Shown one piece after another: positions 51,043 through 53,009 of a stretch of 64,000 nucleotides of DNA. The translations under genes and the position numbers were made by a program. A model generated the notes under the pieces. It was not told the origin of the DNA, made no database searches, and saw nothing but the letters and a program-made list of their open reading frames with translations. Each line of letters begins with the position of its first letter. Position 1 is the first letter of the stretch. The DNA is from Methanospirillum hungatei JF-1 (GTDB lineage: Archaea; Halobacteriota; Methanomicrobia; Methanomicrobiales; Methanospirillaceae): contig NC_007796.1 in the NCBI RefSeq assembly GCF_000013445.1, positions 1,958,936-2,022,935 of the forward strand, written 5' to 3'.

Positions 51043-51600
51043 ATGATGGAATTTATTCTACCCGGTGTTCTGATTCTTATCCTGATAGCACTTGTTGTCT
51101 GGTTTGTATCTCTGTATAACCGGTTTTATGCACTCAAAAATTCATATGAAGCGACCCTTGGTCAGATCAAGGTTGCCCTTAAAAAGCGGCTTGATATGAT
51201 TGACCAGCTTCTGGGGGCGGTGAAGAGCTATGCCGCTTTTGAAAAGGAGACATTTGAGCGGGTTACTGCAATGCGGGCATCAGTCGGATCTGCTGGAGCT
51301 GGTGATATCGCAGCACTTGAAGCAGAATCACGGACGATTCTGGGAAGACTGTTTGCTGTTATGGAAAATTATCCGGATTTAAAAACCCAGGCAACCGTTT
51401 CTGATCTGATGGGCGCTGTGAAAAGTGTTGAAGATGAGATTGCCCGCCAGCGATATACCTGCAATAACATCGCCGAGCAGTTTAACACCATGGTGGATAC
51501 CATCCCTTCAAACCTGGTCGCACGGTTTTCAGGTCTTTCCAAGCTTCAGTACCTGGAGTTTGAGGAAGAGATTGCTAAAAGACCTGAGATATCCTTCTAA
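51043..51600 (+). CDS. lemA: LemA-family protein
   Basis: 185 residues. One N-terminal transmembrane helix (~4-25), then a helical bundle with NRFYALKNSYEATLGQIKVALKKR, the LemA hallmark, and NTMVDTIPSNLVARFSG near the end. Function unknown. Its stop is 2 bases from the end of the converging diadenylate cyclase gene. Confidence 0.9.
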   Translation: MMEFILPGVLILILIALVVWFVSLYNRFYALKNSYEATLGQIKVALKKRLDMIDQLLGAVKSYAAFEKETFERVTAMRASVGSAGAGDIAALEAESRTILGRLFAVMENYPDLKTQATVSDLMGAVKSVEDEIARQRYTCNNIAEQFNTMVDTIPSNLVARFSGLSKLQYLEFEEEIAKRPEISF

Positions 51601-51602
51601 TT

Positions 51603-52880
51603 TTATCTGGTCTCAAGGATTATCCGGCCCTCTGCCATAATCCTGACCTGCCCGCCACTTTCAGAGACGACAATACCGATCGCTTTTGTCTCCTGCGTAA
51701 TTGCGGCAACTGAAACATGACGGGTTCCAAATCCTTTTGAGAGCTGGACATTACTGGTATCAATAGAGATATACCGGCCGGCTGCTTCAACCGTCCCGTC
51801 CTCCCTGATGACAAAGGCACCATCAAGAAGGGCAAGTTCCTTGATGTTCTCCCGCATGTCCGGATTGGTAATCTTCCGATCTGTTGAGGAATGACCGGCG
51901 AGGGGGTTCAGGATAAGTTGCCTGGACCGTTCGAGGACAGCATCACTATCACCAAGGACAAAGGCGGTGCCTACCGGTTTTCCTTCTCGTCCCTCCCGGG
52001 CAATCTCTATTGCAAGTTTGATGACCTGCATGCAGATCTCCTTATCCCCGTCATAGTACTCTGCAATCTGGTCGGCGATCGCGCTTAGCTCCTCGTTGGT
52101 AACAGGCCCTGTGGATTGCCTGGTCAGGACAACCGTTCCATCTGGAGCAGGACGCCGACGAATATGATAGAGAACAAGACCACTGATAATAAGCCCGCCT
52201 ACTCCGGTCCCGATCAGGATCCAGAAGAACGGCCCGTTCATCACCGACTCTTCACCAGGGGGCTTTGGAAACTCTCCAGGACTGATATTCGAGGTCAGAG
52301 GTTTTGTTACATTTTTATTATCAGAGAAAAACCCTGGCTCTATGGTCAGCAGGAACCGATATGAGTCGTATGCCTCATCATACATCCCCTGTCTTTCATA
52401 ACAGATCGCACGGTGGTACCAGGCATCGGCATAATACGGATCGCGGGCAATCGCTTTTTCAAACTCAACCAGTGCAGCCTGACAGTTCCCGACATCCTCA
52501 TATGCCCGTCCCCATTGGAAATATGTCTCTGCCGTCTCATTATTTCCGGTCATGGTACTGACTGGTGATGGGGTTGGTGTGGCGGTCCCTGTACTCGGGG
52601 CCGGTCTCATGGTCGGACTTTGCACCGGAGGGGGAAGGGTCGGGCTCACTCCAGGCTTTGGGTTTTCAACCGGGGGCTTTACCGCCGGCTCCTTGGTATG
52701 AATCGGAGCGATGGTCGCTTTGGTTGTCATTTCATCCAATGGAACAGGTGCCGTAACCACTGGAGTGATGATATCAGTTCCGGTTACCGATGTTTCAGCA
52801 AAACAGGGGGTAATATATGATACTGCTGTCAGAACTAAAATAAACACCATCAGGTACCGGTACCAGGAGATGGCGTTCAT
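51603..52880 (-). CDS. Membrane TPR-diadenylate cyclase (DAC domain) protein
   Basis: About 425 residues from the ATG at 52880. Signal-like helix at ~5-27, a Thr/Pro-rich linker (~50-110), two TPR repeats (~115-190; YFQWGRAYEDVGNCQAALVE and DAWYHRAICYERQGMYDEAY), one transmembrane helix (~210-235), then a cytosolic DAC domain. The cyclase motifs are D353-G-A (LLDGAFVIRE) and GTRH (~385-388), where the usual RHR reads RHV. By family it makes c-di-AMP from ATP. The layout suggests a sensor with outside TPRs. The frame also opens at 52934, but the signal helix supports 52880. Confidence 0.82.
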   Translation of the reverse strand: MNAISWYRYLMVFILVLTAVSYITPCFAETSVTGTDIITPVVTAPVPLDEMTTKATIAPIHTKEPAVKPPVENPKPGVSPTLPPPVQSPTMRPAPSTGTATPTPSPVSTMTGNNETAETYFQWGRAYEDVGNCQAALVEFEKAIARDPYYADAWYHRAICYERQGMYDEAYDSYRFLLTIEPGFFSDNKNVTKPLTSNISPGEFPKPPGEESVMNGPFFWILIGTGVGGLIISGLVLYHIRRRPAPDGTVVLTRQSTGPVTNEELSAIADQIAEYYDGDKEICMQVIKLAIEIAREGREGKPVGTAFVLGDSDAVLERSRQLILNPLAGHSSTDRKITNPDMRENIKELALLDGAFVIREDGTVEAAGRYISIDTSNVQLSKGFGTRHVSVAAITQETKAIGIVVSESGGQVRIMAEGRIILETR

Positions 52881-53009
52881 AGTAGTACTAAGGTGCTGAT
52901 TACTGATAAAGATGTAACCGGAAGGACGTATCATTTTGGGGTTTATTAAATTATTTACTCTTCAATCTGTATATAAAAGAAAAATGAGAGTCTGATGAGA
53001 AGAGAGGAT

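Follow-up and report, generated by a model that had tools for sequence, protein, structure and literature searches.

Does the protein that joins two TPRs, a membrane helix and a putative diadenylate cyclase (DAC) domain, encoded in the 64,000-nucleotide stretch of the Methanospirillum hungatei JF-1 genome analyzed here (the window), possess a genuine and active cyclase, and, if so, what might the TPRs predicted to lie outside the membrane contribute to it? What is known of archaeal c-di-AMP signaling comes mainly from DacZ-type enzymes, and a methanogen cyclase with an outside domain would offer a testable input for this messenger.

Domain architecture of the TPR-membrane-DAC protein

Pfam searches, AlphaFold models and the charges flanking the membrane helix bear out the layout proposed in a preliminary description of this DNA, in which a signal helix and a Pro/Thr linker lead to two TPRs, followed by a single membrane helix and a cytosolic DAC domain (Table 1). 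The open reading frame also has an in-frame ATG upstream of the start used here, at 52934, which would lengthen the product to 443 residues. The full-length AlphaFold model comprises a helix at residues 3-21, four TPR helices at 117-180, a long helix at 217-241 and thereafter the alpha/beta DAC part, with pLDDT below 50 over residues 23-113; its mean pLDDT is 65.5 and its pTM 0.43, and the relative orientation of the domains is not readable from it. By eye, an A-x-A-like site precedes the cleavage position of the signal peptide. Pro, Thr and Ser make up 47% of the stalk (residues 27-115), within which a segment, KATIAPIHTKEPxVKPPV, is conserved across the genus in the alignment. TPR_1 is recovered by Pfam with 42.2 bits in two stretches, the strongest at 151-183, and the same search of the outside part gave no domain besides TPR. 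The topology was read from hydropathy and charge: within the 20 residues flanking the membrane helix there are four K/R after it versus one before it, which fits a cytosolic C-terminus, and TPRs outside, a membrane helix and the DAC inside form the likely arrangement.

Table 1. Coordinates of the cyclase gene, its parts and its neighbors in the window, and of TrkH-DAC fusions in the named loci of relatives.
Feature	Position	Strand	Remarks and basis
TPR-membrane-DAC protein gene	51603..52880	minus	ATG 52880, stop 51603; 425 aa ORF (P0001)
Signal peptide, residues 1-27	52800..52880	minus	hydropathy of relatives; AlphaFold helix 3-21
Pro/Thr-rich stalk, residues 28-115	52536..52799	minus	predicted disordered
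Two TPRs, residues 116-183, predicted outside	52332..52535	minus	Pfam, AlphaFold, dN/dS
Membrane helix, residues 217-241	52158..52232	minus	AlphaFold, flanking charge
DAC domain, residues 277-425, predicted cytosolic	51606..52052	minus	Pfam, curated models, fold
DGA motif, residues 353-355	51816..51824	minus	sequence; aligns with solved DACs
RHV at the site of bacterial RHR, residues 387-389	51714..51722	minus	sequence, alignment
NosD/right-handed beta-helix protein, 737 aa	53010..55223	minus	Pfam NosD, 4.3e-43
lemA	51043..51600	plus	Pfam LemA PF04011, 4.8e-40; convergent to cyclase gene
TrkH-DAC fusion	L058:1277-3478		
TrkH-DAC fusion	L109:4456-6423		cut at 3' end
TrkH-DAC fusion	L174:393-2453		

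Identity of the C-terminal domain

The DAC profile (Pfam PF02457) matches residues 294-419 with an E-value of 3.6e-22 and 78.6 bits (the curated cut-off is 27). When the DAC part was modeled alone from a 40-sequence alignment (pLDDT 91), the top Foldseek matches were DisA, DacM and CdaA. In VIA-align, the best 40 entries span Z-scores of 11.7-15.7, and the next row, at Z 2.6, consists of proteasome chains; 39 of these 40 entries are titled as DisA, DacM, CdaM, CdaA or DacA, and the first row, 2fb5, bears the title hypothetical membrane spanning protein. The profile search that had been set as the test of DAC identity thus came out well above the Pfam cut-off, with the fold in agreement, and by profile and model the C-terminal domain is a DAC.

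Its score against the curated DacZ model (NF041371) is 121.3 bits, relative to an equivalog cut-off of 430, and involves the DAC part only (residues 277-423, E 4.4e-35). The CdaA (TIGR00159; 35.8 bits, cut-off 188.8) and DisA (NF010009; 17.5 bits, cut-off 201) models likewise fall short of their cut-offs, and the protein ends with the DAC, lacking the domains that DisA carries C-terminal to it. The suggestion that this is an unfamiliar layout therefore stands insofar as the curated models assign the protein to none of DacZ, CdaA or DisA, but it falters in that the layout may already be catalogued as DacW (see below).

Conserved motifs and selective constraint

As described earlier, DGA is intact and RHR reads as RHV. 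The solved bacterial DACs in the alignment carry GTRHR, and the valine had raised the worry that the enzyme is inactive. However, in a sample of 82 proteins, biased in that its 80 loci were picked by DAC-domain patterns (the window protein and the REC/PAS-class member L002 complete it), the residue after RH is Ser in 36, Ala in 21, Asn in 13, Val in nine, Gly in two, Thr in one and Arg in none; the DGA position of the same proteins reads DGA in 75, DGV in six and DGI in one. Further, DGA is combined with RHM in all eight haloarchaeal-looking DacZ-type proteins (L157-L163, L176), seven of which pass the DacZ equivalog cut-off, the eighth scoring 416 versus 430. Since Arg occurs in none of the close relatives and the haloarchaeal proteins have RHM, the third Arg is not, on these alignments, a defining feature of archaeal DACs, and RHV was rejected as a sign of inactivity. 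The Haloferax volcanii DacZ is reportedly essential and makes c-di-AMP (PMC6741144). The replacement of RHR by AAA reportedly abolishes the activity of M. tuberculosis DisA (PMC3328451), a result that is uninformative for the third residue alone. With RHV not being a lesion, the window protein, as judged from its sequence, probably works as a membrane-anchored diadenylate cyclase; the literature searched yielded no activity report for any DAC of its branch.

A caveat to this tally comes from DacZ-like, DacZ-sized proteins of the order that retain RHR (L129, L130, L131, L138, L169, L171, L175): DGM, DGI or DGV replaces DGA in them. A change in one motif thus seems to go along with a change in the other.

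Comparison with four congeners (L007, L033, L034, L035) gives dN/dS values of 0.028-0.072 over the TPRs and 0.034-0.062 over the DAC; saturated dS gave no value for either against L036, nor for the stalk in four of six comparisons. The stalk and linkers diverge faster than both domains. Such low values indicate that the open reading frame is not a chance one, and its TPR and DAC ends look maintained for use under strong purifying selection.

Phyletic distribution and relationships

A DAC is present in 93 of 100 sampled genomes of the host's family and in 58 of 58 among the good ones. The family loci inspected, i.e., those returned by this search and 20 more (two of which, L135 and L140, yielded no frame), are part of all matches; among them, the TPR-membrane-DAC layout occurs at nine loci of the host's own genus (L001, L003, L007, L011, L021, L022, L023, L030, L143) and in four further genera (L006, L010, L029, L125). 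Within the set of 80 compared loci, the closest of which is from M. hungatei M59 (95% identical), the layout is whole in nine (L032-L038, L040, L042) and cut at the 5' end in L039, several of these carriers being the same genomes as loci of the other two lists. The TPRs were identified by Pfam in the window protein, L037, L040 and L042, and by alignment in the other loci. By these comparisons, the layout is real and kept in at least five genera of the family.

A profile of the whole protein matches 130 of 148 genomes of the phylum at an E-value of 1e-25 or better; the match is full-length in the own genome only, and elsewhere covers the DAC part, in many cases within frames of about 260-310 residues. 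The layout was not found with this profile in 140 genomes outside the family at E <= 1e-25, a search that weaker TPR types would escape.

In the DAC tree (79 rows, with L064, L095 and L109 omitted as short or cut, and some slices cut at a second DG and hence shifted by about ten residues), the window protein belongs to a supported 9-row clade (SH-aLRT 96). The membrane-type DACs require four changes on this tree, but its starred branches force only one, so that separate origins of this type are not established. The placement of L040, L042 and L101 on long branches is unsure. L040 and L042 are also the most divergent TPR types, with outside parts of 270 and 313 residues versus 184.

Gene neighborhood

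The NosD-type gene adjoins the cyclase gene upstream in the same direction, and its product, with a leader judged by eye, is probably secreted. By tblastn of the window neighbors, it lies directly upstream and codirectional in nine of 12 loci from three genera (L007, L030, L032-L038), two of which (L037, L038) lie outside the own genus; it is absent at L040 and L042, and the L039 sequence is cut there. In L033, L035, L037 and L038, however, the genes for aldehyde dehydrogenase and endonuclease IV likewise keep their places ahead of NosD and DAC, so that the adjacency may partly be plain synteny rather than a functional pair. The beta-helix protein is a possible surface partner of the cyclase.

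On the other side, the convergence with lemA noted previously was recovered, with two bases between the stops of the two genes; the same tblastn search finds a convergent lemA in eight of the 12 loci, all within the genus. Between the NosD-type and cyclase genes, a TATA-like CTTTTATATA noted by eye at 52970-52979 on the minus strand suggests a promoter of the cyclase gene's own. The codirectional NosD-type gene, the genome's second DAC and the non-Arg residue after RH as a rule of the branch were absent from the preliminary description.

Relatives with exchanged N-termini

The DAC is found behind several other N-termini. A TrkH potassium transporter and a DAC share one frame in L058, L109 and L174 (Pfam), the first two being 87.6% identical; among 150 genomes sampled from the order, three (G158, G273, G243), all of one family, match over both parts, with one stop within the matched stretch of G273. 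As read from its sequence, this fusion is a physical link of c-di-AMP synthesis to potassium uptake, and by analogy points to potassium as a c-di-AMP target. By Pfam, an AAA ATPase with Vps4_C is fused to a C-terminal DAC in L057 and L063, and one with an AAA lid in L094; L065 is an AAA-DAC by sequence pattern only. The N-terminus at these four loci (Methanoperedens and a euryarchaeon MAG) appears MIT-like by eye. PKD domains were recovered by Pfam in L072 and L074 and by eye in L078, L079 and L086, and PKD-membrane-DAC is a second outside-facing DAC design within the order; L126, L134, L137 and L141 also look to be of this type by eye. Pfam finds the DAC only in L062, L101 and L173, the last of which has the membrane-DAC plan with a different ectodomain. 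The commonest class, termed REC/PAS (about 555 residues), accounts for 46 of the 79 tree rows by a script rule; within this class Pfam was run on L002 alone, where PAS passed and REC did not, the latter being assigned by eye.

The DAC domains of the own genome, sought across its one contig of 3,544,738 bases, are two: the TPR-membrane-DAC protein and a 540-residue PAS-PAS-DAC. No GGDEF was found in this genome, so one or both DACs must supply any c-di-AMP. Seven TrkA_C/RCK_C stretches and one MscS are candidate effectors, and a phosphodiesterase might be among five DHH stretches; a close TrkH was not found (no match at E 1e-60).

GGDEF serves as a general sensory output module in many bacteria. 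Tentatively, and with somewhat less than even confidence, the DAC could be a comparable module in this order, coupled to outside TPRs or PKDs via a membrane helix, to REC/PAS or to TrkH, and to AAA+ in Methanoperedens, with the window cyclase reading the surface beta-helix protein.

Functional implications

We give a little better than an even chance to a membrane-anchored diadenylate cyclase controlled through the outside TPR pair, which would bind a surface protein or peptide. Beyond the architecture itself, catalysis, ectodomain control, ligand and effectors are all matters that we infer. The TPR pair, carried on the disordered Pro/Thr stalk, would bind its ligand outside, the neighboring NosD-type beta-helix protein being the first candidate, and binding or clustering would be relayed through the single membrane helix and a short inner linker to the DAC. 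Catalysis by DACs requires two ATP-loaded domains facing each other, and because the domains need to be paired, clustering of a single-pass protein by a ligand could switch the enzyme. Altered pairing would then change c-di-AMP synthesis in the cytosol, and the messenger might act on potassium or osmotic transport via the RCK_C-type proteins and MscS.

Control by the TPRs faces the objection that there are only two of them, few for ligand specificity, and that they may serve assembly only. Indeed, the cyclase could be always on, with its TPRs merely anchoring or placing it in the envelope (at the sheath, the poles or in complexes) and signal control left to the PAS-PAS-DAC, which bears recognized sensory domains. 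TPRs are common as scaffolds, and Pfam found nothing beyond them outside. However, relatives carry other outside folds while keeping the membrane-DAC plan, which is how an exchangeable input would be expected to look and is more input-like than anchor-like. That the TPRs are strongly constrained favors neither reading; on balance we regard the always-on cyclase as a serious possibility, albeit an unlikely one.

Two readings would deny the protein its enzymatic role altogether. That its architecture is a product of chance or misreading, with separate genes fused by mistake or the DAC falsely called, is refuted by the recurrence of the same fusion as a single open frame in several genomes and genera, together with the Pfam score and fold match; no point in its favor was found, and we consider it virtually impossible. 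It is quite improbable that the DAC has lost its catalysis and works as a receptor by binding ATP or c-di-AMP: the valine in place of the third Arg and the inactive AAA version of M. tuberculosis DisA (PMC3328451) speak for it, but DGA and RH are intact, Arg is absent from the selected set of 82, dN/dS of the DAC is 0.03-0.06, and a member of the uniformly DGA-RHM haloarchaeal set, that of H. volcanii, is reported as a c-di-AMP maker (PMC6741144).

If the cyclase is indeed controlled by its TPRs, outside conditions might set the internal level of c-di-AMP. The domain swaps, those with TrkH and PKD above all, suggest a role of this messenger in envelope state and potassium balance.

Comparison with known diadenylate cyclases

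Archaeal DACs were divided into classes DacV-DacZ by their attached domains in a 2013 review (Corrigan & Gruendling 2013), here known via a 2019 paper (PMC6741144), where DacW lists a M. hungatei member (Q2FM57) and DacX is named from Methanoregula. Of the two DACs in the M. hungatei genome, TPR-membrane and PAS-PAS, either might be the DacW member; judged by length and by eye, the Methanoregula DACs inspected here (e.g., L110) belong to the REC/PAS type, and hence we think it fairly likely that DacW is the TPR-membrane-DAC layout. The layout is thus probably already catalogued and, as far as the literature searched extends, uncharacterized: no description of a TPR-membrane-DAC or TrkH-DAC was seen there, the 2013 review and Galperin's 'All DACs in a row' lying beyond its scope. 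What is new here is the NosD-type gene upstream in three genera and the swapping of N-termini among REC/PAS, PKD-membrane, AAA+ and TrkH-DAC forms.

DacZ/CdaZ (H. volcanii, M. jannaschii) provides the closest curated model to the window DAC, and its haloarchaeal versions likewise have DGA and RH followed by a non-Arg residue. However, DacZ is described as having a PK_C-like N-terminal fold (PMC6741144), whereas the N-terminal part of the window protein consists of a signal helix, the stalk, the two TPRs and the membrane helix. CdaA/DacA of Firmicutes resembles the window protein in being membrane-anchored with a cytosolic DAC (fold Z about 12-14). To our knowledge, CdaA lacks a sizeable ectodomain. 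Its N-terminal transmembrane domains (PMC6741144) differ from the single helix and ectodomain of the window protein. The PKD-membrane-DACs of Methanomicrobiales (L072, L074, L078, L079, L086) share the signal helix (not seen in L086, which is cut at its 5' end), the P/T-rich outside part, the one membrane helix and the DAC; they differ in bearing PKD where the window protein has TPRs and in that their DAC belongs to another clade (SH-aLRT 100).
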